From NCBI GenBank assembly GCA_963971425.1, contig OZ020515.1, positions 17,314,291-17,378,290 on the forward strand: 64,000 nt of DNA, given 5' to 3'. This document shows, in pieces, positions 28,512 to 56,161 of this stretch; within the stretch, counting starts at the first letter, position 1; every line of letters starts with the position of its first letter. Made by a program: the position numbers and the translations under genes. This DNA is from Bryoerythrophyllum caledonicum (Eukaryota; Streptophyta; Bryopsida; Pottiales; Pottiaceae). The notes beneath the pieces are model-generated. The model was not told the origin of the DNA and did no database searches. It saw only the letters and a program-made list of their open reading frames with translations.

Positions 28512-28613
28512 GAAGAAGAAGAAGAACGCCGGTCCCCAAAGGCAAAGGGCCGGCGCGAATAAAGTGTCCGTTCATTCCACCACCAAGTCCATGCCCACCG
28601 GGCATGGGTTGGT
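28512..28613 (-). mobile_element. 102-bp SINE-like or severely 5'-truncated LINE insertion
   Basis: Flanked by 13-bp duplications ACCAAGATATATA (28,499-28,511 and 28,614-28,626); copy C has the uninterrupted site. Read on the minus strand, it runs from ACCAACCCATGCCC through GGACACTTTATTC to a hairpin and a (TTC)n tail. Its last ~75 bp match the 3' end of the LINE family. It is either a SINE borrowing the LINE tail or a LINE copy truncated to its last 100 bp. It interrupts the RT domain of copy A. Confidence 0.85.
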
Positions 28614-31207
28614 ACCAAGATATATACATACTATACGTTGACTTCAAAAATGCCTTTGGCTCAATAGATCATGCCCGACTACTAGCAATAATGATGGACC
28701 TTGGATATCCAAAAGATGCAACTACACTTGTAGGAAACATCTACTCTCAATCGTCCACTTGTTATATCGGAGAACACTTCGGGAAAACAAAACCCATACC
28801 CATTCAAAGGGGGACTATACAAGAGGATATCCTTAGCCCATACCTATTTATTATATTCCTAGAACCACTACTCAGATGGCTAGAACGAGGCAACAATGGA
28901 TACACTTTTGGCACATCACAAGTCACAATAAACTCTGCCGTACACGCGGATGACCTCGCCACCATAACCAACAAAATTAAATCTATTCAAATACAACTAG
29001 ATAGAGTTGACAGATATAACAAATGGACCGGTATGGACGTAGGAGTCCCAAAATGTGCCGCTATCGGATGCTCAAACAAATCCAAACTAAACCCTACCAC
29101 TTTCAAAGCTTTAATGCAAGCTTCCAACATCAATTATCGGAATCAACCGATCCCTATACTACACCAAAACGAGCCATACATATACCTAGGTACCAATCTT
29201 GTCCCGTCTCTAAAATGGAAAATCCAAATCGACACTACAACAACGAAACTCATCAAACAATGCAAAGAACTAACAACATGTCCGGCCGCCATGAAACAAA
29301 AAATAAAAATGGTCGATACTGTAATACGCCCAGGCGTGGCATACAGTTTCTACGGAGTACCATATTCTATGCCCGCTATCAAAAAACTTGACAAAAAAAT
29401 AATAGCCATACAAAAAACCATATGTGGATTATCAAAATGCATGTCAAATGCAATTAAACAACTCCCGCATAACTTATTTGGGTTAGAAGCTTTCTCCCTT
29501 AAAAACGCATATCTCCGTTGTATAGGGGAACAACTACAAAATGCCTTAAATGATAAAGGTAGACTTGGGAAAATATATAACGGACTAACCCATTATGTCC
29601 TTGCCCAATATGGAGGAGCTGAAAACATACCCAGAATTTAAAATAGTGACTGCATAAGATCACCAATAACACGAACATTCTTCTTATTAAAACACATAGC
29701 TAAAATCCACCTTAAAAGTACGCTTCCAAACTTCCTCATTAACCCTACATCACTAGAAATACTATGGCGACAAGAGACATTAAAACAAAACACACTCAAT
29801 ACCCACCTCTCCCAAAAACTTCTACAAAAACTCCTCTCAAAAAATATCTTTAAACTAAGCCAAATTACTCTACCTGACGGCACACACATCATGAGCAATG
29901 AGGAGTTCAAAACCTATCACTTCACCCCATCCAAATTACTAAAAAGTGCTCTACACATTGCTAAGCAACTCTTCTGCCACCCAACATGCCCCACCACATG
30001 TCATCCCCCTTGCAATATACACCCATACTCCTATATACTTCTAGAACCATTCATGACAAACAACAATAGCATCACTCCAAGAAACATCCCCCCACCAACC
30101 CACCTCCCTCACCCTCCCCATCCACATCACCCCCGCCCTCCAACATACATCCTCAAAAGCCCTACCACATACCCCATTAGTAACATCATACACCATAAAC
30201 ACATCCAGCACACAGATACAAATAAAATACAAAATACCTACACAAAATATCTATGCCAATGGCAACACAACGATAATACATACAACAAATGGCTCCCCCA
30301 AAGAGCCCTTTTTCCACGACACAACACCAACACCTCTACACACAACATCGAAAAACTAAAACAATATTACCAAAAAACTCAAAACAAAAGTTACTCAAAT
30401 ATCATCCTAACTCACCACTCCAAGAACAATTCCCGGACTCAAGATCCGTAACACCACCGATAATTATTCCACTCCTACAAATCCATACATCAGAATGCAA
30501 CCCCAAAAATGACATCCTTGCATCCTCAACCACAATTAAAATGGATAATAATCAAGCTCATCTCTACGAAGAAAATGGCCGACACTTGCACACTATCCCC
30601 GTCACTAGACTTCAATGGCTATGGAATCAATACAACACAAAACTACAAATTCCTACAAACATCGAACCAAAGACCCAACCCTTTGAAACCGAACTAATCT
30701 GGCTCTGCCAAAGATATAAATATAGAATACCAAAAAATGGCCCCCTCAAAAACGCGCAATACACAATACCCACACCCATTTTAGACTCCCTAATCTCATC
30801 CTTTAACATAGAACAATCATACTTTTCTTCCCCGGTCACATGTTCCATAAAACTAAAAAAATTTTACTCACCTTTTGAAAGAGACGAAATATTCGGATCT
30901 TTGGGAAAAGCCTTTGACTACAAATGGACCAACAAAGAGATAGCTGACCCCCACAACGAGCAGGAGATGGAACAAGCACTACACTGGGCTAGACTTGCCG
31001 CCAAACATGATCCAAACAACACTAATATGATCATCATCACACCAAACAACAAATGGTACCAAAACAACAACCAACACTCAGACCCATTTCCAGACTCCCA
31101 TATCATTGCAATATTCGAGGCAGACTCCATACCATACGAAGAACCTACCATCCCACCTGAGCTAAATAAACCCCGAATCGAGCCATCTACACTAAAGAAG
31201 AAGAAGA

Positions 31208-31232
31208 ACGCCGGTCCCTCCGGGACCGGCGT
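31208..31232 (-). terminator. 3'-terminal hairpin of LINE copy B
   Basis: Perfect 11-bp stem ACGCCGGTCCC/GGGACCGGCGT with a 3-base loop, followed on the minus strand by (TTC)n. The equivalent hairpins in copies C (51,701-51,727) and D (56,130-56,157) have different inner stem and loop bases but still pair. This suggests an RNA structure recognised by the element's RT. The label terminator is only the nearest category. Confidence 0.7.
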
Positions 31233-34200
31233 GAATAAAGTGTCTGTTCGCACCACCACTAAAACCATGCTCACCAAGCAAGGAATTAGTAGTATGGGGC
31301 TACTTCCCCCTCTCGAGGGTAGACACTATGTAACAAGTAACCATAGGGATGCGAACCAAAGCAAAAGAAAGCCACAATCATAACAAAGGGATGGGGAGAG
31401 GAGAAAAATGGAGAAAAAGAGAAGACAAGGAAGGGGGGGAAGGACCAAAGGGGGAGATGAGTGGGCGGTGGGAGAGTTGGGGTGTTTTATGGTGTGTTGT
31501 GTGGATCGGGGAGGGTTTGGTTATTCTCAATTTTCCTTTTATGTAATAAAATGGACATAGCATGTTGGATTGCGATGGTGTTTATATTATTGAAGGTATG
31601 TTTAACTGTGTTGATGGGTATTTTGAAGGTTTCCTCGAGGGTGTTCATGGGTGGGATGTAGGTTGTGGCGCGGGCACCGGCCGTGACGACTATGAGGGGG
31701 TCAATTTTCCATCCGAGGTTTCTGATGTCGTCGATGAGGGGTTGATATTTGTTTATTTTGTTTTCAATTGTTTCTGGTGAGAATCTGTCGTTACAATACG
31801 TGAATTCAATAAATTGAATGGTATAGTTTGGATCAATATGGGTGGGTAGCGGGTCGTTGTATGGTAGGCCTTTTACGCATAGTATGTCGGGTTTGAATCT
31901 GGCATTACAATGACATCGTTGGGTTGCACATGTGCATGGGAGTAGCCAAGGTGGGACCGTATTCTCTTGTGGGTTGTCATTGTAAGTACCGGCATTCATG
32001 AGTATGAAACATCGGGATTTGTTATGTGAGGTAATTAGTTTTCGGATTTCCCATACTGCTTTGTTGTGTCTTTTAACGATGAGGGAGTGTATGTGGTGGT
32101 TTTGGCATTTGAGTAAAACGTGTAGCCATGTGTCGGGGTCTGTAGAGGTGCATATGGGGCATGTTATGGATGGGAAGCGTTCAATTCCGAAGAAGAGTTG
32201 TTTACGGGCATTCCCCATGTATTGACCAGTGCGGAATTTAATAAGGCATGTAATTTGTGAATCGGTAATGGTGGGATTTTTCCAGAAATTTGTAGATAGT
32301 TCATTGTCTATGTTGTTGTTGCTTGTCCATTTTTCTATGTTAAGGAAGTTTTCGGAGATCGTGTCAATGTCATTGTATGTGTCTTGTTTTTTAAGGTATT
32401 TTCCTAAAAATCGGACCGGGCCTTTGTCCGGGGTGTCATCTTTGGAGGGCCAATCCTCTTTTTGGAAATAGTATGGGGTGGCATGTGCATGTTCATGTGG
32501 GTCTTTGGCATTTTTATGTGATTTTTCTCTTCCTTCTTTGGCAAGTTTATCGGCTTGATCATTTCCTTCTATATTGGCGTGGGCCCTAACTTTGTGGAGT
32601 GTAGTGGGTTGTGTTCTATTTTGGAGCATTTGTACCATGGACATGAGTGTTATTTTGTCGGGGTGGTTATTGTGGAGAGTGGGGTGTGTTATTTGTGTGT
32701 TTAGTAAATAGAGGACATTAATGCAATCCGTAAAAGTATGTGCGGGTTCGTTGGCATATTTTGTGTTGATGATTTGGAGTGTTTTGTGTATGGCCATCAT
32801 CTCTTCTCTGAGGATGTTTTGAAGTCCATGGAGTCTTTTTGCTAATTTGATTTCTTTATTGGGGTTGTATATGCCATATCCGGCTTTTTCTCTATGCCAA
32901 TGTCCCAGGCTGATTTCTGTTGGTTCTTTGAAGGATCCATCTGTGTAGTAACTATGTATGGGGTCATATTTTGGGTGTGTGTGTGTGTGATAATTAGGGA
33001 GGGGGGGTTTGTCACGGAGTAGTTTGGTGTGTTGTTATTGTATTCTAGTTTAGACCATTTTTTGCTGCGATTGACTGAAGTTTGGGGGGGTATGGTCGGG
33101 CATATTTTTGTGTATACTCGGTTGATATTTAGATTTTTGGCTATGGATGTAAGTGTGGTGAGTTGCTCTAAGGTCCCCATTGTTTTGTTTTGGTGATGGA
33201 CACATAGTATTTGTAGTGTAGCTAGTTCAAGCCTAGGTTTATTTTGTTCAGGTGGGATAGTAGGTTCTTCATATGTTATTGAGTCCGCTTCGAATAGTGC
33301 AATGATGTGTGTGTCCGGGAAGGGACCCAAATGTGGGTTAGGATTTTGATACTAGTTTTTGTCGGGGGTTATAATTAGGGTGGAGGTGTGGTTAAGGTCA
33401 TGTTTGGCCGCGAGGCGGGCCCAATGTAGTGCTTGTTGTGTTTTTTCTTCATTGTGGGGGTGGGCCATACCATTGCCTATCCATTTGTGGTCAAAAGCTT
33501 TACCTAGTGATCCAAATATTTTATCTCTTTCAAAGGGGGAGTAAAATTTGTTGAGTTTGGTGGGGCATGTGACGGGGGAGGAGAAGTATGAATGTTGGAT
33601 GTTGAATGTTGAGATTAATGAGTTTAGTATGGCTATGGGTAGAGTATATTGTGTAAGTTTAAGGGGGTTATTTTTTGGTATTCTATATTTGTATCTTTGG
33701 TATAGCCATATGACTTCAGTTTCAAATGGTTGGGTTGTTGGTTGAATATTTGTGGGGGTTTGTAGTTTAGTGTTGTATTGATTCCATAACCATGTGAGCC
33801 TAGTGATTGGGATGGTGAAGAGGTGTCGTCCATCTTCTTCGTATAAGTGTGCTTGGTCTTTGTCAATTTTAATTGTATTAGATGAGGTGAGAATGTTGTT
33901 TTCCGGGTTACATTCCGTTGTGTAAATGTTTAGTAGGGGGATTATTGTGGGTGGGGTGACGGATCTTGTGTCTTGGGGTTGATTTTGTGGGTGGTGAGCT
34001 CGGATAATTTTGGTGTAAAGTTTGTGTTGAATTTTTTGATAGTATTGTGTCAATTTTTTTTTTATTATGTGTAATGGTATTTTGGTTGTGTCTTGGAAAG
34101 AGGTTTCTTTGGGGGAGCCATTTGTTGTAGGTGTGGTTATTGTTAGTCCATTGGCATAGATATCTAGTGTAGTTTTCGATTTGGTTTTTATCTATTTTTT

Positions 34201-37200: not shown

Positions 37201-38421
37201 TTTCTGTAAATTGTTTCCATTGTAGGTCTATTATTTGTGGTGGTGTGTATTGGTTTTCGTTTTGTCTCCCTATGAGGGCAATGTCTCTATTAAAGTTTCC
37301 ACATAAGATGTGGTTGTAGTTGGGATTGTTGGTAATATGGGTGGTGATGTTAGTTTTGATGTCCTCGGTAAGTCTAATGTCTTCGGAGTGGGATGGCATG
37401 TATATGTGGTGAATTAGCCATGATTGTAGTGGGTGATTGGAAATTTCCAAAATTTGGAGATATGGGGATACGTTCATTGGTGTTGGGATTTTTTTGATGT
37501 TGCCTGGAAAGGCATAGTTTTTGTGTATAAGAGTGAGGAGGCCCCTTCGGCCCGGTGTGTATGGTCGTCTTTGTTGTATGCATCATGTTAGAGCATGTGT
37601 ATTATTGAAGATAAGTTTGTAGTCGGGAAAAAGTCTTTGTATGTATTTTGTGGATTTTGTGGCTGAGATTTTTGTTTTTTGTATAATTATGAGTGTCGGT
37701 GGTGTGTTAGTGTGTGTAATTATGCTTTGTAGATTTGGGAGCGCGGTATTAAGGGATGAAGCGTTCCATGTTATTATGCTTGTGTTGTTGTTGTTCGTAT
37801 GTGGGTTGTGGTTTGTGGAGGGATGTGGTTCGGTGGTGGGGGTGGATGTGTGTATTCCGGAAGGGGGTTTAGGCATTTTAGTGCCTCATTTATGATAGTG
37901 TTAGGGAGGTAGGAAAATTTGTGGTTTAGTATGTCATTTGTTGAGGGTATATTTTGGTTGTGTATAAAGTCATATATTTTTTTGTTTACCGATGTGTTAT
38001 GGTTTATGATATTTAGATTGTTTTCAAGAAATGTCGCGTAAGGGTGTGGGGTATTAATGTGTCTTTCGGGTGGGTTTTGTAGATTGTGTAGGGTGTGTAG
38101 GAGTGTGTTGGTCCATTGGGTTGTGTTTTGATTTTGTGTGTTTAAAAGTTGATTGCAGATGTCTATGTTGGGGTGTATAGTGATGGTTAGGGCATATAGG
38201 ATGTGGGATGGGTGGTGTTCACTATGTTGGTTTATATATACGGCAATATGTGGATATGTGTTATTAGTTTGTTGATGTAATGTATGTGTGGGTTTAAAAA
38301 GGGGGGCAAATTTTTGGGCAATGTGTTCGTATTCGGGTTGTAGTTTTATGGTATTTGGTATGAAATATGTTTTGGCATTCTTTTTATGCGAAGCGGGGTG
38401 TCTTTTTAATACATTTGGCAT

Positions 38422-38469
38422 GGGTCCTGGGTTAGTCTCTATGTCCCTTCCAATTAGTATTAGTAGTTT
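38422..38469 (-). other. 2A-like motif with intact DIETNPGP (copy B, second)
   Basis: Reads KLLILIGRDIETNPGP, then MPNVLKRHP. All consensus positions D-I-E-x-N-P-G-P are present, and the upstream helix-forming hydrophobic run LLxLxG fits known 2A peptides. It is predicted to give ribosomal skipping between the Gly and the final Pro, releasing the leader from the enzymatic part. Confidence 0.8.
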
Positions 38470-38628
38470 GTAGTAGGTGGGTTTTTTGTTTTGTTTTAGA
38501 GTTTTTTGTTTTTGTATGTGGCTTTGGTATTTGTTTGTTTTTTGTTGTAGTTTAATGGTATTGTGTGTGGTGTGTTTGTTGGTATTTTTCTTGTATAGAG
38601 TAGGGTGTCTTTTTGATATGTTAGTTAT

Positions 38629-38676
38629 GGGTCCCAGGTTGGTTTCTATGTCCCCTCCTAGAATTAGTAGGTGTTT
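38629..38676 (-). other. 2A-like motif, degenerate NLGP (copy B, first)
   Basis: Reads HLLILGGDIETNLGP, then ITNISKRHP. The Pro after Asn is Leu (a single C-to-T change explains it). It lies about 70 codons upstream of the intact motif and in the same frame, so the element carries tandem 2A modules. Confidence 0.75.
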
Positions 38677-39534
38677 GTGGTATATATGATTGTTGTAAGG
38701 TTTAGAGGTTTTTGTTCTGTTTACAGGTTTTTTAGTCTTTGTTATAATGGGGTTTTGTTTGTATGGGGGTAGGTAGGTGTTTATATTTTGTATGTGAGTA
38801 GTGAGTTTTTTCCTATTTATTCTTATAGTGAGTGTGATTATGTATGTCATGAACTTATTATGTATCCTTGTGTTTATTTGTGTAGTTTCTTTTATTTTAT
38901 TAATGTTAATATTTTTGTATATGTTTGTTTGTATATTTTTATGTTTTTTCGCCATGTGTGTATGTGATTATGTTTGAGGATATTTGTGTATGGATTTGTA
39001 TTGGTATTTGAGGGAGTATTCAAGTTTGTGTGTGGATTTGTATAAGCTTTTGTTTTGGTGTTTGTATTAGTATGTATTTTGGTATATGTACTGATGTTTA
39101 TACCTGTATTAGTGTTTGTATAGAGCTCTGTATTTTTTGCCTTGTATTATATTTGTATTTGTATTTGTATATGTATATGTATTGTATATATATTTATATA
39201 TATATTTGTATATGTATTGTATACACAGAATTTGGTATAGTATTTGTTTTTATTTTTTATTTTGGTATAGTATGGGTATTCCACACGTATGCTGTATAGC
39301 GTATACTTTGTCTATGTATATTGCAATATGTTCTACTATGTATTCTATTGGGTACGGTAAAAAATATTGTGTTGATACTATACAATACTAGTATTTTGTA
39401 GTATAGGTGTATGGTGACTAGTATTAATATGATTTTGTAGTGTATATAGGTAGTGTCTAAGTATATTCTACTGCGGTCGTATTTTGTATAATACGGATAG
39501 AGTATTAAATCTTTAGCCTTGAGGTTGTTGTTCT

Positions 39535-41025
39535 TCACATTTTTGACGGGTCTTCTTCAATCAAGGTGTGAGGCTTGGATCCCGTGATGTTTTGCAACAT
39601 TGCAAAGGTGGTACCAACACATTCTTGGATCTTCAACATTTGGTCTTTGATTTCTTGGAGTTCCTTGGCTTTTGTATCCGCTAGTTCTTTGACTTCTTGC
39701 CTCAACATCTTGTTGTTTGCCTCAAAAGCCTCCACTAGGTCCTTGGTGATGCCTTGGGTCGGGGTGGGGAGGTTGAAGGTCTCCACCGTGTTGATGATGG
39801 CTTTGTTGATGTTTTCAAAGCCAAACTCTATGAGTTGAGCTTGGATGGGGGGCTCGATTCCATCAATGCTCCTTCTATGAGGATCGAACACCACGAAGTG
39901 GCCTCCTATGAGGATGGTTTTCCCCACGAATGCCCTATACACAATTGGATTAGCACATACCACGTTTGCACTTCCATTGTGGCAAACTCCGTTGTCCTTG
40001 TGAAACCAAGTGGAGCAAACATTAGAGTCTCCCATAATTTTATGGATAGCATTAGTAGTCTCAATAACATTCATTAGTATAGGGAGATGGGAGAGAGTTA
40101 GGGTGAGGGCGTCTTTCTTAGCCTTCATCTCTTTGGTGACGCGGGTTCCTCCAAGGGGCTTGTTTGTTTGCATGACTTCTTGTTGTGCGGTCACTTGTAG
40201 TTCTTGGATTTTCTTGGCTTGTTGTGGGGTGGTGGTCAAAATGAAGGCAAATCCATCTCCTTTTGCCTTCTGCACATTAGTCACTTCAAAATCATGCCCA
40301 CGTTTAAAGCTAGATTCAAGGACCTCTTTAAAGAGGTGGTTAGCAGCAATATTATGCAAAGATGGACTTTGTATTTTAACTGATAGGCTAGAATGGTGTG
40401 CAATGCTATGGTAAGTTTTACATACCTTTCCCACCACGTTGACCTCATCGATTTTGAGGATGAATGGTCTAATCCCCTTGAGGAGGAGTAGGCCATCAAT
40501 TGCCGATTTTGCAAGGTGCAATTTGATTAGTCCTGACCATACACCCTTTATCCCTCCCCCTTGTTTGATACTTAGACAATGGATGGAGATAGGTTCAATG
40601 AGTTTCTTACCAAGAGGGATGTCCATGTCTTTGAGGCGGTTGATGACCATACTTTTGACTTCATCATGCAAAATGGGGTTAGTAGGTAATTTGAAGTGGA
40701 TGGCCACTTGAAAATCAAGAGCCAAACCCGTACCTTCGTCCACGGGGATGTTGGTTGGCACTTGTGTCAAGTTGTAATGTTGGCCGCCTAGGCCGCCTGC
40801 CTCTCGTGAGTGTGGATAGTGGACTTGTGGGATGTGTGGGAAGGCTATCCGAGCTTGTTTGACTTCTTGGGCTTTGTTTTCTTTAATGCCTCTGGTCACC
40901 ATGTCCTCAATTGTTTCTTCACTGAAGAGCTCTTCTAGTCCTTCCTCCACCGCTAGGTCTTCCATCACTTGGAAACCTAGCCAAAATTTGAAGCAACTAA
41001 TGTCAGGGGTAGTGATGAGAGCCAT
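39535..41025 (-). CDS. LINE ORF1 body of copy B (496 residues open)
   Basis: Open from MALITTPD at 41,025 to the stop at 39,535. The full ORF1 probably began at 51,811, because the minus strand there reads MSSRRIIMFNKEMDVDELVV up to the C insertion and continues in frame at 41,130. A TAA at 41,125-41,127 now interrupts that N-terminal part. Features include SCFKFWLGFQVMEDLAVEEG near the start, IEDMVTRG, several beta-rich blocks and a charged C-terminal 90 residues (ELADTKAKELQEIKDQM) likely to form coiled coil. No known domain can be named. Homologous ORF1s are in copies A and E. Probably the nucleic-acid-binding chaperone of the element. Confidence 0.75.
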   Translation of the reverse strand: MALITTPDISCFKFWLGFQVMEDLAVEEGLEELFSEETIEDMVTRGIKENKAQEVKQARIAFPHIPQVHYPHSREAGGLGGQHYNLTQVPTNIPVDEGTGLALDFQVAIHFKLPTNPILHDEVKSMVINRLKDMDIPLGKKLIEPISIHCLSIKQGGGIKGVWSGLIKLHLAKSAIDGLLLLKGIRPFILKIDEVNVVGKVCKTYHSIAHHSSLSVKIQSPSLHNIAANHLFKEVLESSFKRGHDFEVTNVQKAKGDGFAFILTTTPQQAKKIQELQVTAQQEVMQTNKPLGGTRVTKEMKAKKDALTLTLSHLPILMNVIETTNAIHKIMGDSNVCSTWFHKDNGVCHNGSANVVCANPIVYRAFVGKTILIGGHFVVFDPHRRSIDGIEPPIQAQLIEFGFENINKAIINTVETFNLPTPTQGITKDLVEAFEANNKMLRQEVKELADTKAKELQEIKDQMLKIQECVGTTFAMLQNITGSKPHTLIEEDPSKM

Positions 41026-41130: not shown

Positions 41131-41143
41131 TACAACCAACTCG
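41131..41143. repeat. TSD of LINE copy C, left
   Basis: TACAACCAACTCG, repeated at 51,752-51,764. The two flank copy C exactly and mark its insertion into ORF1 of copy B. Confidence 0.9.
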
Positions 41144-43619
41144 GGCACTTCTCGAGTGGCTGGGAGATGGCTGAGTGAGCTCCACAAATTCCGGTGAGGG
41201 GGGGAGGGACTTAGTCTCATTTCTTGAAACGCTAAGGGCAACAAGAGGTTGCTGGCCTTGTTGTAGAGCTTCCCATTTGCGTTTGATTTGAGTTAGGATT
41301 GGATTGTAGCAGAAGGTGTTGGAAGAAGCTCACAAGTTTTAGATCTGTGGTAGTAGAGTTGCAAAGTAGCATCTTATGTGTAGATCTATGGGGAGTTTAT
41401 ACTGAAAGCGATTGGGACATGTGTTGGTCCACAGACTGCAGCATAGGAATGCCCTACAGGCAACTCCTAACACAGATCTAAAAGTTAAGGCACCTAGATC
41501 TAGATATGAGACAATGGTGATGCAAGGTGTGTTTGTGAGACCAAAATCTAGATGAGTTAGGGCTGAAAAGCGTGGGAGCTAGTGTTGGCATCCAAGATAG
41601 TCTTACTCACACACCCAGCACAAACCTGACTCTGCATCAGAGATCTAGTGCCGAATCTGCAGTCATCCCACAAGTCGCCGTACCCCCCCAAGCTGGATAC
41701 TCGACCAAGATCAAGAACATGAGCTCGCCAGAGCTGCCGGAAGGCAACAACTCATCATCAGCACATCAGGCTACACATTATACCCACCCCTTCCCTTATG
41801 TTTTTTATGCTCCCGTTCTCGTCATTTCCTTGCATCCCTACCCATATGCTTTCCATGTTCTTGTCCCCCCCATCTCTTCACAAAATGTCAACTCCACATG
41901 TACTAACAAGTACATACTGAGACATAACAGGCCCAGCCACAAAAAGCAGCTGCCAACAAAGACCAACAAGAGAGGAGAGCAGCTGAAGTTCCCCCTTCCC
42001 CAACCGAAGAACTCCAACATAAAGACCGCACGAGGACATCACCAATCACGGCTGCAACGCAGCCTCATTTCACCACAACAGGCTTCCCCTCACCTTCCCA
42101 TTTTTTGCGAGTATTTATTTTTAACATTAGATATTACTAACACAACATGCAGGCTTTTACACACAATAGTGAGCTTTATAAAAAGGGCCAGCTGCAGCAG
42201 AAGCAGGGCCTCCTTCGGCAAACACAAGAGTACAACAGCTCTTAGATCACTGCAGAGCACAACATCGACGAAGCTAGCTGAGATCCAAGCGCACACAACA
42301 ACAGATCTGCACAAGCAACTCCGAAAATCAACTCTACTGGATCTAGGTAAGTTCCTCACCAACTCTCACTACTTTCCTCTTCTTTGCTGCAACATCAAAG
42401 TCATCTTCAGTTTACAAACTCTTACTTATCACTCATTAAAAACCACGTCAAAAGCACTTAGGCACGCCATAACCCTTAAGCACATCATTAGAAAGATTGT
42501 ATCTACATACTACACGCGGAAGCGCTGGCAAAATCACTACAGATCTACGCAACGGGCAAAAGGAGCACACAAAGACGTCAACTCACCTCAAAAGGTGCGG
42601 ATCCACCAAGTGAACATACAACCCTGCGCGCATACACTCAGGATCTGCACAAACATCACAACCACACACTCCATCAGCAGCTGCGTTAGACGATCTGGAG
42701 GCGGGCAGCAGCAGGAGAGTAGCAGACAAACAAGATCAAGATCTAGGACAAATAAAGAGGTAAGCACTCCTCCAGCACCTTCAAATTTTTCTGTGACTCC
42801 CCTCCCACACCTTTACGATCTCCTCTCCTCTCCCCCCCTCCCCCCTCCCCCTGCCTCTCTCTCGCTTCCCCTCACTGCCCACCCCCCTCCCCCAGCCTCT
42901 CCCTTGTTCCCCACCCCCCTCCCCTCCCGAAGGCACCCCAACCCTCCCTCTCCCTATCGACTTTTCCTTCCCCTCCCTGTGCACCAACCCCCTCTTTCCC
43001 GACTACACTCCCCTCCATGTATCCCAACCACTCTCGATAGGCTCCCCCTCCCTAAACCCCAATCCCTCCTCTCTCGGCTCCACCCCAGCCCCTCCCTGTC
43101 TGCGGAGACCACCACCCTTGACAGACGATCATCAAACCCTCCCTTCCAGTAGTCATCCAGGGCCCTCCTCCCCCAGACTACCGACCCCCAAAACCCTAAC
43201 GACACTTAGAAAACAAGTAGCGACCCCCAAAAACCCAACTAGCGACACTAGAAAAATCAGTAGCGACCCGCCAAACTCTGGTAGCGACCCTGCCCATCTA
43301 CACAGCGCCCTAGTAACCCCCCGCAGCGACCTAGCTCCCCCTCGCAGCGACCCAGTTCTCTCTCATAGCGACCCAGTTCTCTCTCATAGCGACCTAGTTC
43401 CCTTTCACAGCGACCTGTTTTCCTCTCACAGCGACCTCGTTCCTTTGCACAGCGACCTCTGCAGCGACTGCGCCCGCTCACACAACGACCCCCCCTACCC
43501 TCCCTGCAACCTACCTAACCTCACTACTTACCCCCCTAATCCTAATCAAAGCATCCCCTTCCACTTCAGCAAAAGAACACTCAAAACTACACATGCACCG
43601 AAAAACAGACACAAAAGTT

Positions 43620-44060
43620 CTGGTAGTACTATACTACAAAACAAATACTGGTATAGATACTTGTACATACGCTGATATGTATTCTGGTACATGTATATGT
43701 ACGAATACTGATATGGATACTGGTACCTATACTAGTATGCATACTGGTACAAATACTGACACATATACTGGTACATATACCAGTACGCATACTGGTATAA
43801 ATACTGATAAATATACTTGTACGTATATTTGTATATATATTGGTATGTATACTTATATGTATACTGGTACGTATATTAATACAAATAATGATACATATAC
43901 TAATATGAATACTGATGAAAATTCCAATACGAATACTGGTACGTGTACTAGTATGAATACTAACACGAATACTAACACGAATATTGATACAAATACCAAG
44001 ACAAATATTGAGGCATACACTAATACAAACATACGAACGAATACTAATATAAAACCAAAC
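43620..44060 (+). repeat. Degenerate short tandem repeat (ATACTGGTACNT) in the ORF2 leader of copy C
   Basis: Units of about 6/12 bp, such as ATACTGGTACATATACTGGT, repeat for over 400 bp. They stay in frame, giving a Thr-Tyr/Asn-Thr-Gly/Asp-rich peptide (TGTYTSMHTGTNTDTYTG). Similar TATTTGTAT-type repeats occupy the matching place in copy B (39,000-39,250, minus) and CAAATAC-type repeats in copy A (about 24,800-25,450). Confidence 0.8.
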
Positions 44061-44219
44061 AAAACTACACAAACACACACAAAGACAACCACACACCATC
44101 AACGAAACACATACATACACACATACAAAGACGAATACATACAATCAAAAAAACACAAAATAAAATACCAAAGCCACATACAAAAACAAAAAATTCTAAA
44201 ACAAAACAAAAAACCCATC

Positions 44220-44267
44220 TACTACAAACTACTAATATTAATTGGAGGGGACATAATTACAAATACA
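44220..44267 (+). other. 2A-like motif, decayed first copy (copy C)
   Basis: Reads YYKLLILIGGDIITNT. The upstream part is as in the other 2A motifs, but the NPGP end is lost, apparently by a small deletion or by fusion to the next module. About 60 codons downstream is the intact motif. Confidence 0.65.
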
Positions 44268-44429
44268 ATTACACCCACTATAAAAATGAATAAAAAAAAA
44301 TTCATTACCAACATGCAAAACACAAACACCCACCTACCCCCAAACAAACAAGACTCTAATAACATAGCAAAGCCTCAAAAAATTACACAAAAGATAAAAT
44401 CTTTAAAATACAACACTAAACATATATAC

Positions 44430-44480
44430 CACAAATTATTACTACTTCTAGGAGGAGACATAGAAACCAACCCGGGACCC
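44430..44480 (+). other. 2A-like ribosome-skipping motif, intact (copy C)
   Basis: Reads HKLLLLLGGDIETNPGP, followed by MPNILKRHP. It matches the 2A consensus in full and lies in frame between the low-complexity leader and the AP endonuclease. Confidence 0.85.
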
Positions 44481-47400
44481 ATGCCTAACATACTAAAAAG
44501 ACACCCTACATCGCATAAGAAAAATGCCAAACTATACTTCATACCTAATACCATAAACTTACAACTGGAATATAGACACGTGGCAAAATCCTTTGCACCT
44601 TTCTTAAAAAACACACATACACAACACTTCCCACCCAAACATTGCCCATTACATACAACAAAAAAATACGCATCCACCACCCCACATTCTATATGCACTA
44701 ATAATCACTACTCATCCAAACATAGATGAATGTAACCATCTTCTAAATCCACAAAATGTGAACACAATTACATGGACCAATACACTTCTACAAACTTTAC
44801 AAAACTTACAAAACCCACCAGAACGACACATCTACACTCCACACCCTTATACTGAATTCCTGGCAGACAACCAAAGTATTATAAACCATGAGAACTCAAT
44901 ACATAAAAGACTATACGACTTCGTACATAGTCAAGACATACCACCCTCAAATGATACAATAAAACTAAAATTCCCTTACCTCCCTAACAACCTCATAAAT
45001 GAATCACTAAAATGTCTAGATCCTATACCAGAATACACCCACCCACCCCCACCTCTTCCCTACATCCCTCCACTAAATCAAAACATTAGATCAAACCAAG
45101 AAAATACATACATAATCACATGGAATGCCTCTTCACTAAACACTGGCCTTCCTAGCTTACAAACTTTAGTCACAAACACAGACACACCACCGGCCCTCAT
45201 AGTTATACAAGAAACAAAACTAACCGCCACAAAATCTACAAAATATATACAAAATATATTTCAAAACTATAAACTCATCTTTAACAATACACATGCACTT
45301 ACAAGATGCATGCAACAAAGGAGACCATACACACCGGGCCGCGGTGGCCTCCTTACATTAATACACAAAAAATATACATTCCCCGGCAACATCAACAAAA
45401 TCCCTACCCCAATGCACATATCACCATACATTCAAATAATTAAAATCACTAATCATCCACTACAACCGTGGTTAATCTTTCACATGTATATGCCATCTCA
45501 TCCCGAAGATACTAGATTTCTCTTAATATACAAAACACTATTACAACCCATATTAATAATCATCCCAATCATACATACCTATTATGTGGAGACTTTAATA
45601 GAGACATAGCGCTAATTGGCCGCCAAAATGGAAACCACCACACCCCCCCTCAAAACATTGATTACCAATGGCGCCGCTTCACAGAAAACTTAAACTTCAC
45701 TTACATCAATACCGATACACAATTCTCTAGACAAGGTGGCTACAATTATAGTGATTGGAGTCTAATAGATGGTTTCTATATAAATACAAACACCAACACA
45801 CAATACACCGCCACAACAAACAAAGATATTATTCTCAATTCGGACCACTCACCCATACAACTGCACATCCCAAATAACACACTAATTAGTAGAACTCCTA
45901 CAATCCCAAACAATGACACTATACGCATACTCAACCCCATCCCAAAAACCAACATAGAAAAATTCAAAACAAAATTCTTCGAAGAAAACTCCGACCAAAT
46001 AGACTCCCTTATAAACACTCTTGAAAACAATAGCCAATTAACACAAGCTCAATGGCAAGAAGCATGCCACTCTCTAGACAAACTCATCAATAAAATCTCT
46101 GATACACTAGAACAAACTTGTAGAGCACACCCAATACCCCAAATGACAAACAGAACCTCTCAACAAGGCGGGTATCTACCCCGCAAACTCTCTAAAACTT
46201 GGAAACAACACTTAACCACATACCATACCATACGTAAAACCATTAGAATTGTAAAAAACAACCCTCAATGGCGTAACCACCCCATACACAACGAACTACT
46301 AACCATACAACACATCCAAATCCCTACTCCGCCGCCTCCGGACCTTCCCCACGATACATGGATAAATGATATCGCGATAATTGCAAAAAATGCCAACATA
46401 CAAGCCCGGAAAATAATCACAAAATACACAAAAGAAAACATTAAAAAAGCCATCTCAAAATACAGACAACTGTACGAAATCAGAAATAAAAAAAATTAAC
46501 AAAAAAGTCTTTAAAAACCTTGAATCCCCACCAATGGATTGTATCAAAGATCAATATAATAATATTCTAACTAGCCCCGAAGACATTGCGAATGAAATAT
46601 TTAACCAACAAACAAAAACCAATAGACCAACAGTACTAACATGTAATTACCAGCCACAACATACAATAGAATGCACATGTGCAATACGCCAATACCCTTG
46701 GCACGACCTGGACGGATATATCCTTGACAAACGGGGCGAACCAGAAATTCCACTTCATAAATACCTCAACAGAGCCACATATGACACATGCCTTCAAAAT
46801 CTTGGAAATAATAAAGCCCCAGGCCCAGACCGCATACCAAACTCAATACTAAAAAACATGCCTCCAAGATTTCACAAGCTATTATTTCTGTTTTTCTCCC
46901 ACTGCTATAAACAAAAACAGATACCAAACTCATGGAAATTAAGTACAACAATTCTACTATACAAGAAAGGCGACCCGTCCATACTACCCAACCATAGACC
47001 AATTGCACTAGCTAACACAATATACAAACTCTTTACCAGTACACTCACCTCCATACTATCCTCATACGGCGAAAAATTCAAAATCCTACATGATAGTCTA
47101 GAAGGATTTAGAGCAGAGAGAAGTACCGCTCGACAAATACAAACTATAATAGCCGCACTAGAAGACGCAAAGTTTACTAACCAAGATATATACATACTAT
47201 ACGTGGACTTAAAAAATGCCTTTGGCTCAATTGACCATGCCCGACTTCTAGCAATAATGATGGACCTTGGTTACCCAAAAGATGCAACTACACTTGTTGG
47301 AAACATCTATTCTAAATCATCTACATGTTATACCGGTGAACACTTTGGGAAAACAAAACCTATACCCATCCAAAGAGGAACTATACAAGGGGATACCCTC

Positions 47401-50400
47401 AGCCCATACCTATTCATTATATTTCTAGAACCACTACTCAGATGGCTAGAAAGAGGAAATTACGGATACACTTTTGGCACATCACAGGTCATAATAAACT
47501 CTGCCGCATACGCGGATGACCTAGCCACCATAACTAACAAAATCAAATCAATCCAAATACAACTAAACAAAATTGATAGATATTGTAAATGGGCCGGTAT
47601 GGACGTAGGTGTCCCAAAATGTGCCGCTACCGGATGCCCAAACAAATCCAAATTGAATCCTACCACTTTCAAAGCCCTAATGCAAGCCTCAAACATCAAT
47701 TACCGCAATCAACCGATCCCCATACTACACCAAAATGAACCATACATATACTTAGGCACAAACCTTGTTCCCTCACTAAAATGGAAAATCCAAATCCACA
47801 CCACAACGACAAAACTCATCAAACAATGCAAAGAACTAACAACATGCCCAGCCACCATGAAACAAAAAATAAAAATGGTTGATACCGTACTACGCCCAGG
47901 TGTGGCATACAGTTTCTACGGTGTACCATACTCTATGCCAGCTATCAAAAAACTTGATAAAAAAATAATAGCCATACAAAAAATCATATGTGGATTACCA
48001 AAATGTATGTCAAACGCAATAACCCAACTACCACATAACCTATTTGGACTTGAAGCTTTCTCCCTCAAAAACGCATACCTCCAATGTATAGGCGAACAAC
48101 TGCAAAATGCTCTAAACGATAAAGGAAGACTTGGGAAAATTTATAATGGATTAACTCACTATGTCCTTGCCCAATATGGTGGCGCTGAAAACATACCGAG
48201 AATTATAAAAAGTGACTGCATAAGATCACCAATAACACAAACATTCTTCTTATTAAAACATATAGCTAAAGCCCACCTTAAAAGTACGCTCCCGAACTTC
48301 CTCACTAATCCTACAACACTAGAAATACTATGGCGCCAAGAAACATTAAATCATAACACAATCAATGCCCAACTCTCCCAAAAGCTTCTACAAAAACTCC
48401 TCTCAAAAAATATTTTTGAACTAAACCAAATTACCTTACCTAACGGTACACACATCATGAACAATGAGGACTTCAAAACCAACCACTTCACCCCATCTAA
48501 ACTAATAAAGAGTGCCCTAAGTGTTGCTAAACAACTATTTTGCCACATAACATGCCCCACTATATGTCATACTCCTTGCAACATACACCCATACTCTCAT
48601 ACACTTAAAGATCCATTCATCACCCTCAACAATAACATCATCCCAAGAAATATTCCCACACCAACCAATCCCCCTAACCTTCCACATACATACCACCCCC
48701 ACCCCCCAACATACATCCCCAAAAACCCTACCACATACCCCATTAATAATATCATAAACCATAAACATATCCAACACACAGACACAAATAACATACAGAA
48801 TACCTACACAAAATATCTATGCCAATGGCAACACAATGATAATACATACAATAAATGGCTCCCCCAAAGAGACCTTTTTCCACGGCATGACACCAATACC
48901 TCCACACATAACACTGAAAAATTAAAACAATACTACCAAAAGATCCAAAACAAAATATACTCAGATATCATCCTTGCCCACCACCCACAAGAACAATCCT
49001 CAGACTCAAGGTCCGTAACGCCACCCATAATTATCCCACTCTTAAACATCTACACAACAGAATGCAACCCCGAAAATGATTTCCTTACATCCTCAAACAC
49101 AATTCAAATAGATAACAATCAAGCACATCTATACGAAGAAAACGGCCGACATGTACACACCATACCCATTACCCGGCTCCAATGGTTATGGAACCAATAT
49201 CATACAAAATTACAAACCCCTACAAACATTGAACCAACAACCCAACCCTTTGAAACCGAACTAATATGGCTTTACCAAAGATATAAATATCGAATACCAA
49301 AAACTGACCCCCTCAAAAATGCGCAATACACAATACCCACCCCCATTTTAGACTCACTAATATCATCCTTTAACATCGAACACTCATACTTTTCCTCCCC
49401 AATCACATGTCCTACCAAACTAAATAAATTCTACTCACCGTACGAAAGAGACAAAATATTTGAATCCCTAGGCAAGGCCTTTGAACACAAATGGATCGGA
49501 AATGGAATAGCTCACCCCCACAACGAGAAAGACATAGAACAAGCCATACATTGGGCTAGACTTGCCGCCAAACACGATCCAAATAACACAAAAACAATCA
49601 TCGTCAAACCGAACAACAATTGGTACCAAAACAACAACCAACATTCAAACCCATTCCCAGATTCCCACATCATTGCATTATTCGAAGCAGACACAATACC
49701 ATACGAAGAACCTAATATCCCACCCGAGCTAAAAAAACCCCGAATAGAGCCATCTACATTACAAATACTATGCGTCCATCATCAAAATCAAAACCTGGGC
49801 TCCCCAGAACAACTTGCAGAACTTACCTCCATAACAGACAATCTAGACATACAACGACCGTACACAAAACCGGCCCCACCAACACCCATACAAACCCCCG
49901 TAAACAAAAGTAAAAAATGGTCAAAATTAAACTATGACAACAACACATTAAACTACTCCGTCATACCTCCCCCTCTCCCAGACTACCCAACTCATACCAC
50001 ACCAAAATTTAACCCCGCATACAGTTATTACATCGACGGCTCCTTTAAACCACCGGAACAAATTAGCCCGGGCTCTTGGCGAAGAGAAAAAGCTGGCTAT
50101 GGCATATATAATTCTACCAAAGAAATTAAACTAGCCAAAAGACTCCATGGACTACAAAATATCCTCAGAGCAGAACTCATGGCCATTCACAAAACACTAC
50201 AAATCATCACAACAAAATACAAAAATGAACCTGCACATATATTCACCGATTGTATAAATGCACTCTACCTACTAAACACTCAAATAACACACCCAACCCT
50301 TCACAACAGTCACCCCGACCAAACCATACTAACATCAATGGTACAAATGTTACAAAAACGTACACAAATCACAACCCTTCACAAAGTCAGAGCCCATGCC

Positions 50401-51700
50401 AACATTGATGGCAACAAACAAGCAGACAAACTTGCAAAAGAAGGCCGAGAAAAAACACACAAAAATGCCAAAGACCCTCACGAACATGCTCATGCCACCC
50501 CATACTACTTTCAAAAAGAAGATTGGCCTTCCAAAGAAGATACCCCCGACAAAGGCCCAATTAGATTTCTGGGCAAATATCTCAAAAAACAAGACCTCTA
50601 CAACAACCTGGATACAATCTCAGAAAATATTCCTAACATAGAAAAATGGACTAACAATAACGACATAGACAATGAACTCTCTACAAACTTTTGGAAAAAC
50701 CCCATCATCTCAGACTCACAAATAACGTGCCTCATCAAATTCCATACGGGTTAGTACATGGGAAACGCTCGCAAACAACTCTTCTTTGGAATAGAAAGAT
50801 TCCCATCCATAACATGCCCCATATGCCCCTCAACGGACCCCGACACATGGCTTCATGTGCTACTCAAATGCCAAAACCACCACATACACTCTCTAATTGT
50901 TAAAAGACATAACAAAGCGGTATGGGAAGTCCGAAAACTAATCACCTCCTACAATAAATCGAGATGTTTCATACTTATGAACGCCGGCACTTTTAATAGC
51001 AATCCACAAGAAAACACGGTCCCCCCATGGCTACTTCCATGCTCATGTATGACCCAAAGATGTCATTGCAACGCTAGGCTCAAACCGGACATTCTTTGTG
51101 TTAAAGGTTTACCATACAACGACCCACCACCCGAGAACATCAACCAAGACTACACCATTCAATTCATTGAATTTACATATTGCAACGATAGATTCTCCCC
51201 GGAAACAATACAAAACAAAATAGATAAATACCAACCCCTCATAGACGACATCATTGCTCTCGGCTGGAATGTGGACCCCCTTATTGTAATCACATCCGGC
51301 GCTTGTGCCACCACCTTTATCCCATCTATGAAAACTCTCGAAGATACCTTCAAGATACCCATTGATACAATTAAAACTACCTTTAAAAATATCAACACCA
51401 TCGCTATTCAACATGCCATGTCTATTTTACTGCATAAACGCAAAATCGAAAACAACCAAGTCCTCCCTGATAGACAAGACCCCCCTTAGGAACTTCGCCA
51501 CTCTGTCTCTTCCTGATTGGCTGCCTATTTGGTTTTGCTTTTTGTTGTTTAGTTAGTTTGGTCGTGGTTGGTCGTTGTTGGTTGGTTTTTGGCTACTCGT
51601 TACATAGTGTCTACCCTCGAAAGGGGGAAGTAGTTCCAGTTCGCTAATTCCTTGTCCGGTAGGCATGGTCTTAGCAATGGAGCGAACAGACACTTTATTC

Positions 51701-51751
51701 ACGCCGGTGCCCTTCGGGAACCGGCGTTCTTCTTCTTCTTCTTCTTCTTCT
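51701..51751 (+). terminator. 3'-terminal hairpin and (TTC)n tail of LINE copy C
   Basis: ACGCCGGT pairs with ACCGGCGT, with an inner CCC-TTC-GGG pairing; (TTC)n follows to the TSD. Upstream at about 51,600-51,640, CCCTCGAAAGGG forms a second small hairpin that is also present in copies B and D. Confidence 0.75.
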
Positions 51752-54173
51752 TACAACCAACTCGTCAACATCCATCTCCTTATTGAACATGATGATTCTT
51801 CTGCTACTCATTTTAAAGCGACCCTGATGATGTGAATTTTTTTGAAAGTGTGGTTTGAGGTGACTTACATGGGCTCTTGTGGAAGCGTTGATGTGGACTG
51901 CTGGGGGCTTGATGTGGTCTTTGCCGTCAGCTTCTCTGACGGCTGGATGTGATGATGGGAGCTGGCTTTTTGGGGTAGTGTGGTTGTTGTAGATGCTCTT
52001 GGTGAGTCGTTGCTTGACCTTGTTTGGTCGGCTCCAGCCCAGTGCTTCCTGGCGCACTGCTTTGTTTAGCTCTGTGCTCGCGTCGTTTGTCCTGCTTGTG
52101 CGTGCTTCGCCCGGCCTCCCAGCCAGTGCTTCGCTGTGGCGCTCCTTGTGTTTCACTTCGCCCGGCCTCCTAGCCTGCGCTTCGCAGTGGCGCTCCTCTC
52201 GTTTCGCCCCCTGGCGTGCTCCTCTGCTCCTCGCCCTTGGCTCTGGGCGCGCTCTTTCGTTCTTTGTCTGTGTCTTGTCTGGGTCTCCCTGTCCGCTCGC
52301 ACTTCCTCGTTTCGGCTCAGTCTTGTGTCGTATCTAGGCTGCTCCTCTGCTCCTCATCCTTAGCTTGTTTGTGGCTGGACGCACTCTCTGTTCTCGCGCT
52401 CTTCTACTCTTCGTCTTCGTCTTGTTTGGGTCTCCTTGTCCACTCGCACTTATTCTCTTCTTCTTTGTCCTGTTAGGGCCTCCCTGTCCACTCGCTCTCC
52501 CGCTCTTCGTCTTCTTGATGTTTGTCTTCTTTCTTATCTTGCTCACGTACGTCTTGAGTCTGTGTTGCTGCGTCTTCCCTCCGGTTGTGGGTGCTTGGGC
52601 GATTCTTCTCGTCCTTGGCTTCGTGTCAGTTTTGTGTTCGGGGCAGACTTGTTTCCATGTGAGGATTGTCTGCACACTTACAAGTTTAGAATGTGTTTAT
52701 GGTTCGTGAACTTACCTGTATCATCTTGATAGTCTTGGTAGTGTGTGTAAGTGTGTCGTCCTGCTCGTGTTGTTTCCTGTGTGTGGTGAGTCACTCTTTG
52801 CTTCAGTATTGGTGTCTTCTGTAGGTTGCGGGCCTGTGAGGTTGGTGTTGATGGCGGAAGGTTGAGGGAGTCTAGCTGAGGTTTGGGGACCCAGGGTCTT
52901 GTTTGTGGAGTCTTGCAGTGTATTCGGGGGGCGGGGGTTGGCCTGTTACAGGCTGGGGGGGAGGGTGAGTTGTAATCCAGATTGGGGGGGTGAGTTACAG
53001 GCTGGGGAGGGAGGGTGAGTTGTAATCCAGGTTTGGGGGGATGAGCAGTATACTCGGGAGTTGATGGTTGTCTCGTGTCTATTCTTGAGTCTTGTGCGGG
53101 GGGTGAGGGTGGTCCAGCTTCTGATATTGGAGGGGAGGGTCTTGGTCCAGGTGTGTGCAGATCCGCAGTTGGCTTGGGAGGCGAGGGCAATCCAGCGTCG
53201 ACTCTTGGGCTGATCGTGTGCACTAGCTGTGCCGGATGTCCAATCTCTGTACTTTGGGGGGTGGGTCTTGCTCCAGGGAGGTTGTAGTCTAGTCTTCGTG
53301 CTGTCTTGTATGAGTCCTGCTAGTCTAGGGGCATGTGTCCAAGCCGCGTAGTCTTGGTATCTTGGTCGGGTCCAGTGTCGGGTCTTGAGGTTCAGTCTTG
53401 TTTGCACCTTCGTAAATCCTCCGCCTATATTAATCTTGCAGTCGCGCCTTTCGGGGTTGTCGATATATTTGATTCTATTTGAATTTCTTTAGCGCTTCCG
53501 CACACAATGTGATACGACCAAGTTTTTTGACCTAACGCTATGTATTGTGTATTTATTACATTTGTTGTGTTGCCTAAGGAATCTCATAAGCAATGAGCTA
53601 CTAAAGAATGATTGCAGGTGAGAGCAATTGGATACAGTGCAAGGAAAGTAAATGGATCTAATGCAAATAATGAGAGAGAGAAAGATACTTATCGTAGGTT
53701 TTGTTGTTGGAACTTGAGTGACGCAGTTGCAGTGTGGCAGCTCTATCTTGTGTGAGTCTTCAATGTTGTGTGTTGCTCGTGTGGGTTGGGGAGGTGGAGC
53801 GACTGCTGGGGGATGCAGATCTAGGCTGTGGGGATCAGATCTAGGGGGATTCGTCACTAAGATGTGTAGGTGGTGGCTTAGATCTAAGTTCCAACACTGG
53901 TATCCCCACTTTCAGCAACTTACCACCTTAGATCTAGCACAACTATCCACTCTTTGTAAACATATCATCACAAATCTGAATAAAAGCCCTGTCCAACTAC
54001 TTCCAACTCTCCATCAACCTTGCAAAATCCAGACTAGCCTCAGCTCCGTTGCAGACGAGGGCTCCACAGCAACTCCAACCACCTGTTGTTGTTCGAAAGC
54101 TTGGTTTCTGAGACTGAGTCCCTCCACTCCCCTCACCACAAATTGCGGAGCTCTATTCAGTCTTCATTTTGGC
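51752..54173 (-). mobile_element. LINE copy B, 5' part (5' UTR and ORF1 N-terminus)
   Basis: Minus strand. The 5' end is at 54,173, next to the TSD shared with copy A. The first 70 bp (GAGCTCCGCAATTTGTGGTG, GGAGGGACTCAGTCTC) match copy C's 5' end. About 2.36 kb of 5' UTR follows, with internal duplications: two ~45-bp units at 52,107-52,200, a Cys/Leu-like repeat at 52,260-52,500 and two ~60-bp units at 52,950-53,040. The ORF1 start ATG is at 51,811. Possible splice donors (AG/GTAAGT) occur in this leader. Confidence 0.8.
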
Positions 54174-56161
54174 CCATCTACACTACAAATACTATGTGTC
54201 CACCATCAAAATCAAACCCTCGGCACCCCAGAGCAACTTGCCAAACTTACCTCCAAAACAGAAAATTTAAACATACAAAGATTATATACAAAACTGACCC
54301 CATCGACACCTATACAAACCCCCGTAAACCGAAGTAAAAACTGGTCAAAACTAAATTATATCAATAATACACTAAACTACCGAGTCACACCACCCTCCCT
54401 CCCAAACTATCCAAATCATATCACACCAAAATTTAACCCCGCACATAGCTATTACACCGATGGCTCCTTTTAACCACCCGAACAAATCAGCCCGGGATCA
54501 TGGCAAAGAGAAAAAGCTGGCTATGGTATCTATAACTCTATCAAAGAAATCAAGCTAGCGAAAAGACTTCATGGACTACAAAATATACTTAGAGCAGAAC
54601 TAATGGCCATTCACAAAACACTACAAATCATCACAACAAAATACAATAACGAACCCGCACATATATTCACCGATTGTATAAATGCACTCTACCTACTAAA
54701 CACCCAAATAACACACCCTACGCTTCACAATAGCCACCCCGACCAAACCATATTAACATCAATGGTCCAACTGCTACAAAACCGTACACAAATCACAACC
54801 CTCCACAAAGTGCGAGCCCATGCCAACATTGATGGCAACGAACAAGCAGATAAATTAGCAAAAGAAGGCCGAGAAAAAACACACAAAAATGCCAAAGACC
54901 CACACGAACATGCCCATGCCACCCCATACTATCAAAAAGAAGATTGGCCTTCCAAAGAAGATACCCCTGACAAAGGCCCGATTAGATTTTTGGGCAAATA
55001 TCTCAAAACAAAAGACCTCTACAATAACCTGGACACAATCTCAGAAAATATTCCTAACATAGAAAAATGGACCAACAACAACGACATAGACAATGAACTC
55101 TCTACAAATTTTTGGAAAAACCCCATCATCTCAGACTCGCAAATAACATGCCTCATCAAATTCCATACTGGTCAATATATGGGAAACGCTCGCAAACAAC
55201 TCTTCTTTGGAATAGAAAGATTCCCATCCATAACATGCCCCATATGCCCCTCAACGGACCCTGACACATGGCTTCATGTGCTACTCAAATGCCAAAATCA
55301 CCACATACACTCTCTAATTGTTAAAAGATATAATAAAGTGGTATGGGAAGTCCAAAAACTAATCACCTCCTACAACAAATCGAGATGTTTTATACTAATG
55401 AACGCCGGCACTTTTAATAACAACCCACAGGAGGATACGGTCCCCCCATGGCTACTTCCATGCTCATGTATGACCCAAAGATGTCATTGCAACGCTAGGC
55501 TCAAACCGGACATCCTCTGTGTTAAAGGTTTACCATATAATGATCCACCACCAGATAACATCAACCAAGACTACACCATTCAATTCATTGAATTCACATA
55601 TTGCAATGATAGATTTTCCCCGGAAACAATCCAAAATAAAATAGATAAATACCAACCCCTTATTGACGACATCACTGCCCTTGGATGGAATGTAGACCCC
55701 CTCATGGTAATCACATCTGGCGCTTGTGCCACCACCTTTATCCCATCTATGAAAACACTAGATGATACCTTCAAGATACCCATTGAAACAATTAAAACCA
55801 CCTTTAAAAACATTAACACCATCGCTACCCAACATGCCATGTCCATTTTACTATAAAAACGCGAAATCGAAAACAACCAAGCCCTCCCTGAAACACAATA
55901 CCCCCCTTGAAAAATACTTTGCTACCTTTAACACTTCTTGTTTTAACTGATTATGTGGTCTTGCTGCGGGTTTGGTTAGTTGGGTAGTTCATGGTTGGTT
56001 GTTTGTCTGGTTGAATCCTGGTTTTTCGTTACATAGTGTCTACCCTCGAAAGGGGGAAGTAGTTCCAGCTCACTATTTCCTTGTCCGATGGACATGGTCT
56101 TGGTAGTGGAACGAACAAACACTTTATTCACGCCGGTACCCCTTCGGGTACCGGCGTTTTT
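54174..56161 (+). mobile_element. LINE copy D, 3' part of interrupted element A/D
   Basis: Opens with the 12-bp TSD and continues the ORF2 of copy A without overlap. It has RNase H, the CCHC finger, the restriction-like nuclease and a 3' UTR with a perfect 12-bp hairpin at 56,130-56,157 (stem ACGCCGGTACCC). The (TTC)n tail is missing: after the hairpin come six T residues and then copy E. Confidence 0.85.
54180..55856 (+). pseudogene. LINE ORF2 C-terminal part in copy D (RNase H, CCHC, restriction-like endonuclease)
   Basis: One frame throughout, with a single premature TAA at 54,471-54,473 just after DGSF of RNase H and a second stop near 55,854 close to the natural C-terminus. Conserved items: RAELMAIHKTL, FTDCINALYLLN, VRAHANIDGNEQAD, CPICPSTDPDTWLHVLLKC, KPDILCVKGLP, IQFIEFTYCND, KIDKYQPLIDD. 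At the position where copy C has TAG, D has CAA in GQYMGNARK. Confidence 0.85.

Follow-up and report, generated by a model that had tools for sequence, protein, structure and literature searches.

The octapeptide DIETNPGP at the N-terminus of ORF2 in a Dualen-type plant retrotransposon is very probably a genuine, selected 2A (StopGo) sequence, at which the ribosome would skip, releasing the leader and giving the enzyme a fixed start. Judged from the sequence, a working 2A stands far ahead of the other readings considered. The motif, its frame, its conservation, the selection and the domain set of the element are directly supported. All coordinates refer to the window, which is the whole stretch of 64,000 nucleotides that was analysed.

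The core DIETNPGP of copy C is located at 44457-44480 (+), in frame upstream of the AP endonuclease, as the initial annotation had described. The G/P junction is the expected skip site, and the translation around the core is HIYHKLLLLLGG-DIETNPGP-MPNILKRHP. The same motif had been placed on the minus strand of copy B; those coordinates are correct, with the core at 38422-38445 (-) and the translation KPTYYKLLILIGR-DIETNPGP-MPNVLKRHP. Both copies were said to fit the rule D-(V/I)-E-x-N-P-G-P, and both do read DIETNPGP. The 30-codon 2A segment of copy C (44394-44483, +) has an L-rich upstream context (LLLLLGG), and its last codon is the ATG after the motif. The leader ORF of copy C (43593-44729, +) spans its two 2A units and the beginning of the ORF2 N-terminal domain; that of copy B (37774-38955, -) spans its two units and the ORF2 N-terminal domain. 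These open frames continue past the 2A into a conserved domain ahead of the AP endonuclease, and coding sequence lies in frame on both sides of the 2A. Copy A carries an altered core, DIETSPGP (25763-25786, +), in which a single letter differs (S replaces N); an in-frame stop lies 12 codons upstream of it. The core pattern (D/G/C/N)(V/I)ExNPGP is present in copies B and C, and absent from copy A and from the upstream units of B and C. A scan of the six frames of the whole window with [DGCN][VI]ExNPGP gave two matches, compared with a mean of 0.0 in 200 simulated order-2 Markov windows.

The relatives of the element are 79 proteins from one search with the copy B leader ORF. By the initial annotation, its reading would fail if the motif were not conserved beyond chance in other copies; the relatives show that it is conserved. 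The motif columns are covered by 64 of the 79 relatives, and 50 of these 64 have the canonical octapeptide [DGCN][VI]ExNPGP. Among the 14 non-canonical cores, 13 differ by one letter and one by two. HIESNPGP, DIEPNPDP, DIETNQGP, DIETNPEP, DIHPNPGP, DVHPNPGP, DTAHNPGP, DIEPNLGP, and DIESNLGP occur once each; DIETNLGP occurs three times and DIETNPRP twice. Two of the 14 have H at p14, a StopGo variant described as active in its own context (PMC12846837). The motif columns are uncovered in the other 15 relatives, and 13 of these ORFs start exactly at the Met after the motif. The query itself included the motif, so the search may be biased to motif-bearing matches; the 13 matches starting just after the motif were still recovered.

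Column counts were made on 82 aligned sequences, including the three window copies, of which 67 cover the motif columns. Nearly all positions are fixed (D 66, I or V 66, E 64, N 66, P 61, G 63, and final P 67), whereas p15 is variable (T 40, P 15, S 8, and L 3). The residue just before the motif is G in 63 of the 67, and a Met directly follows the motif in 76 of 81 aligned sequences. The median pairwise identity is 0.19 in the leader (28 columns, -40 to -13), 0.88 in the core, and 0.51 downstream (122 columns). The description of the leader as low-complexity is borne out by its sequence, and the leader is also unconserved. By the called starts of the predicted ORFs, 4 to 553 residues precede the motif in the relatives. 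Several leaders (P0106, P0149, P0121, P0153, P0142, P0156, and others) contain short repeated words, such as SA(S/Y)RPRH or RPTGLA.

Some relatives place the motif and the enzyme domains in one frame. P0114 has its 2A at 87 and its Pfam AP endonuclease from 310; the corresponding positions in P0108 are 85 and 298. In each protein the two lie in one frame, about 210 aa apart. The 1007-residue frame of P0018 consists of an 82-residue leader, DIEPNPGP, the conserved pre-endonuclease domain, and then, by alignment, the start of the RT; no Pfam family was found in P0018. A different LINE protein, P0068 (1374 aa; RT, AP endonuclease, and zf-RVT), has GIESNPGP near its N-terminus, which is perhaps an independent 2A. 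P0038 (DPYGNQGP), a loose pattern match from the scan of the RT set, was set aside as spurious. The scan of viral contigs with the leader gave 24 pattern matches, none of which was confirmed as a relative.

Comparison of the copies points to selection at the protein level. Within the core, three synonymous codon changes separate B from C, and the amino acids are the same. From RT to RNase H, Ka/Ks is 0.12 for C-A (1075 codons), 0.09 for C-B (1403), and 0.11 for C-D (332). In the pre-endonuclease/endonuclease piece it is 0.17 for C-A and 0.18 for C-B. As estimated from these ratios (0.09-0.18), ORF2 is under purifying selection. Ka/Ks from the 2A on is 0.12 for C-B (57 codons) and 0.56 for C-A (77 codons), the latter from few changes (Ks 0.17). 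Since Ks between C and B is about 1.2-1.6, the 2A has persisted through a long divergence.

The element had been called a LINE. It is indeed a non-LTR element, but the term is too broad: assigned from its domain set, it is a dual-endonuclease element of the Dualen type, because an AP endonuclease and a C-terminal R2-type endonuclease occur together. The pre-endonuclease domain and the start of the AP endonuclease of copy C are at 44758-45609 (+), in a frame other than that of the leader, with homology to 26426-27085 in A and 37477-36062 in B. This broken piece of copy C matched no Pfam family at E 0.01. The AP endonuclease was recognised in copy A (26426-27085) as PF03372 at 7e-7, above the cut-off, and in copy B as PF14529 at 1.4e-4, below it. 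The reverse transcriptase of copy C (46972-47757, +) matched RVT_1 at 4.8e-26; its best matches in the PDB sequence search were R2 proteins, followed by other RTs and LINE-1. RNase H (PF00075, 1.9e-11) is at 50077-50448 (+), and the C-terminal R2-type restriction-like endonuclease is at 50758-51489 (+), behind one stop codon. Plant L1 elements have an APE-only ORF2 without a restriction-like endonuclease; a standard plant L1 was ruled out, as the R2-type endonuclease is present. The AP endonuclease, the restriction-like endonuclease, and the RNase H found here are all features of Dualen/RandI elements, which are described as carrying both endonucleases (PMC4640811; in green algae, PMC8226300) and RNase H (PMC4640811). 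In the descriptions given in these two papers a 2A is not mentioned; the present element differs from them by its 2A, its PCIF1-fold domain, and its apparent land-plant host. The best named algal relative is P0036 (Pleodorina starrii). This protein combines a Josephin-type protease, an AP endonuclease, and an RT.

An unexpected addition inside ORF2 is a domain with the fold of the cap adenosine methyltransferase PCIF1/CAPAM. Pfam and fold results both identify it in copy C at 49213-49611 (+), between RT and RNase H. It is also found in the other window copies (30421-31194, +; 33352-34053, -) and in the relatives P0002, P0003, P0016, P0023, P0025, and P0040. When the PCIF1-like piece was searched as a single sequence against the PDB, only two weak, irrelevant matches came back. 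The catalytic motif of PCIF1/CAPAM is NPPF. Copy C has HPHN at the place that, by our own reading, we equate with it, and NPPF is absent from all 13 aligned rows. The catalytic NPPF is apparently not kept in the domain of the element.

The window contains three nested insertions of this family within 25642-56161. Copy C is whole (41144-51751, +) and is inserted in B, flanked by 13-bp direct repeats TACAACCAACTCG at 41131-41143 and 51752-51764. Copy B (31195-54173, -) is split by C and inserted in A, with 12-bp direct repeats CCATCTACACTA. The 5' part of ORF2 of copy A, as far as it can be aligned to C, is at 25642-31194 (+), and its 3' part (copy D) is at 54174-56161 (+). A and D are halves of one element, and their alignments to C share 12 bp (CCATCTACACTA). 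The intervening 22,979 bp are read as copy B on the minus strand. Because C sits in B and B in A, C is the youngest copy. The frame of copy C is damaged by at least two breaks between 44.7 and 46.5 kb and by one stop at 50752-50754. Since A, B, and C all have downstream frame breaks, no copy in the window is shown to be a working element.

Part of ORF1 is present in copy B (39535-41025, -), with several stops between it and the leader. ORF1 relatives are found in copies A and B and in a further fragment (57306-56164, -); a tblastn search of copy C (41144-43590, +) found none. In A and B the leader is in the same frame as ORF1, and an ORF1-2A-ORF2 polyprotein was considered, but it was dropped for these copies because of the several intervening stops. 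Just after the ORF1 stop, A (24734, +) and B (~39535, -) alike have M-stop-R(S/T)xTSR, which is possibly a translation-coupling signal. At the other end, the 3' UTR of copy C (51590-51751, +) has a terminal hairpin and a TTC tail. The GC-rich hairpin is common to C, B (~31195-31343, -), and A/D (~56020-56161, +); the tails are TTC repeats in B and C and T-rich in A/D. Folding of the copy C 3' UTR is better than that of 200 shuffled sequences (z -3.3). Rfam gave zero matches at gathering score in 31000-57000.

Copies B and C each have a further 2A unit, which is altered and lies 207 nt upstream of the core. In copy B this unit is DIETNLGP (38629-38652, -), one letter off; in copy C it is a decayed unit, DIITNTITP, after KPIYYKLLILIGG (44250-44276, +). 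By our own reading of the words upstream of the units, two types may be told apart, ordered I-II in copy B and II-I in copy C. A 110-bp stretch at the intact unit of B (38547-38440) matches that at the decayed unit of C (44146-44255) with 91.8% identity, against 70.7-77.4% in the longer B-C alignments, and this match stops within the motif. It looks as if the upstream 2A part was exchanged between the copies, in this single case. Picornaviruses with several 2A units, as described in PMC11512398, are alike in having multiple and variable numbers of units per frame. However, many of the picornavirus units described there are active and 50-150 aa apart, whereas the second units of B and C are altered ones within an unconserved leader.

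The mechanism may be as follows. As ORF2 is synthesised, the exit tunnel would hold the L-rich stretch and DIExNPG, which would block the last Gly-Pro bond. The leader would be let go, and translation would restart at the Pro. In intact copies the product would be an ORF2 enzyme with the constant N-terminus P-MPNIL (Pro-Met-Pro-Asn), bearing the AP endonuclease, RT, PCIF1-like domain, RNase H, and R2-type endonuclease. From the features described, we infer the skipping, its efficiency, and its role. The consensus upstream, LLx(C/S)G and then D at p12, is a suitable context, in a by-eye comparison with motifs 2 and 6 of PMC12846837. That survey describes a motif-6 representative as active in reticulocyte lysate, and altering the characteristic residues of the StopGo motifs tested there left nearly no activity in almost all cases (PMC12846837). 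StopGo is also described as functioning in plant cells (PMC4981915). The likeliest role of the 2A might be that of an insulator, which would trim any variable upstream leader; this is suggested by the conservation of the 2A next to a variable, unconserved leader. With the upstream leader trimmed, the element would tolerate 5' repeats and new 5' sequence. A bolder version is possible but rather improbable: the 2A units might be repeated and swapped like cassettes between Dualen-type copies as an N-terminal trimmer, so that any upstream AUG or new 5' sequence could drive a fixed-start ORF2, and the PCIF1-fold domain, probably catalytically changed, may recognise the cap at the 5' end of the RNA made from the element.

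Several observations count against a working 2A, namely the downstream breaks in the window copies, the altered core and the stop of copy A, the 14 non-canonical cores among 64, and the C-A Ka/Ks of 0.56. Other readings of the octapeptide were weighed as well. ORF2 might start at the conserved ATG right after the motif, with the octapeptide being upstream coding or untranslated sequence kept for some other reason. Such a start would agree with the Met found at p20 (76 of 81 aligned sequences) and with the 13 of 79 database ORFs called from exactly that Met; an ORF finder, however, calls such starts whenever the upstream frame is broken or absent. In all three window copies, positions -3 and +4 of this ATG are both C, which is a poor start context in plants. 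The existence of the ATG would leave the octapeptide unexplained, and the conservation ahead of the Met is at the amino-acid level, exactly at the StopGo positions, with p15 free. A start at this Met is considered unlikely. A nucleotide-level instead of a peptide-level signal was also judged unlikely, since synonymous and p15 changes are tolerated.

The L-rich 2A could mainly be a dual-targeting device as in the sea urchin NLRs, in which failed skipping lets the leader route the protein elsewhere. The L-rich stretch upstream would suit such a device, and an N-terminal StopGo with signal function is known (PMC4981915). On the other hand, the hydrophobic run is short, and three of the four relatives' leaders computed are basic (pI 9.5-10.6), the fourth having a pI of 6.5. 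This reading is very unlikely as the main explanation, and dual targeting would not exclude skipping. That the octapeptide is an inactive fossil of an acquired 2A, kept merely through the youth of the copies, might be supposed from the damaged window copies and the several decayed units. Yet B and C both retain the exact core at a Ks of ~1.2-1.6, and the core is kept in relatives with a median downstream identity of ~0.5, which makes a fossil highly improbable. The low complexity of the leader might suggest an artefact or chance, and the probability of this is practically nil given the empty simulated windows and the conservation in relatives; a chance origin of the motif was rejected as already refuted by this conservation.

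The host appears to be a land plant. This is suggested by the PPR tracts at 5151-6442 and the DPH4 gene at 8055-8549 in the same window. Long PPR arrays are a land-plant trait, and the only species-named match of DPH4 (one of 18 matches) is the moss Ceratodon purpureus, at 63%. The plant host assumed in the initial annotation stands as an inference from these two features. The window also contains a Ty3/gypsy polyprotein with a C-terminal PHD finger (61404-63935, -).

The 2A sequences known so far are mainly from animal viruses and from some protist and animal transposable elements. The L1Tc/Ingi elements of trypanosomes reportedly (Heras, 2006) have a 2A at the N-terminus of the frame, before the AP endonuclease, with RT and RNase H downstream. 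The present element shares this order of N-terminal 2A, AP endonuclease, and then RT and RNase H; L1Tc/Ingi differ by their protist host and single 2A, and we know of no R2-type endonuclease or PCIF1-like domain in them. The 2A-bearing non-LTR elements of animals are said (Odon, 2013) to belong to the clades CR1, L2, Rex1, and Crack, with D(V/I)ExNPGP close to where the enzymatic ORF begins. Those elements have animal hosts and belong to APE-only clades, whereas here there are two endonucleases and, in copies A and B, a separate ORF1. A 2017 review names trypanosome and sea urchin retrotransposons as 2A-bearing (PMC5972666). The closest resemblance in context is to the L-rich StopGo class (motifs 2 and 6 in PMC12846837; class A of Rao 2025 as cited there), which also has an L-rich hexapeptide ending in (A/S/C)G before D at p12, followed by DIExNPGP. 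As described there, however, that class is viral and its p15 prefers S, whereas p15 is here mostly T, P, S, or L. The same 2026 survey, with nearly 10,000 viral StopGo sequences, reports almost none in plant viruses, although StopGo is functional in plants, and ascribes the six cases that it has to likely host misclassification; it sees nothing to show that plant viruses use StopGo, and it calls its motifs very rare in cellular coding sequences (PMC12846837).

Among the matches listed in the literature, none describes in its title or the start of its abstract a 2A from a plant genome or a Dualen element, and an earlier listing from a plant is possible. The known 2A-bearing non-LTR branches are Ingi and CR1-type. 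If the present reading is true, the 2A would gain a further non-LTR branch, which is a dual-endonuclease one with a PCIF1-fold domain. A conserved StopGo sequence in a plant genome would also mean that plant ribosomes naturally meet such sequences.
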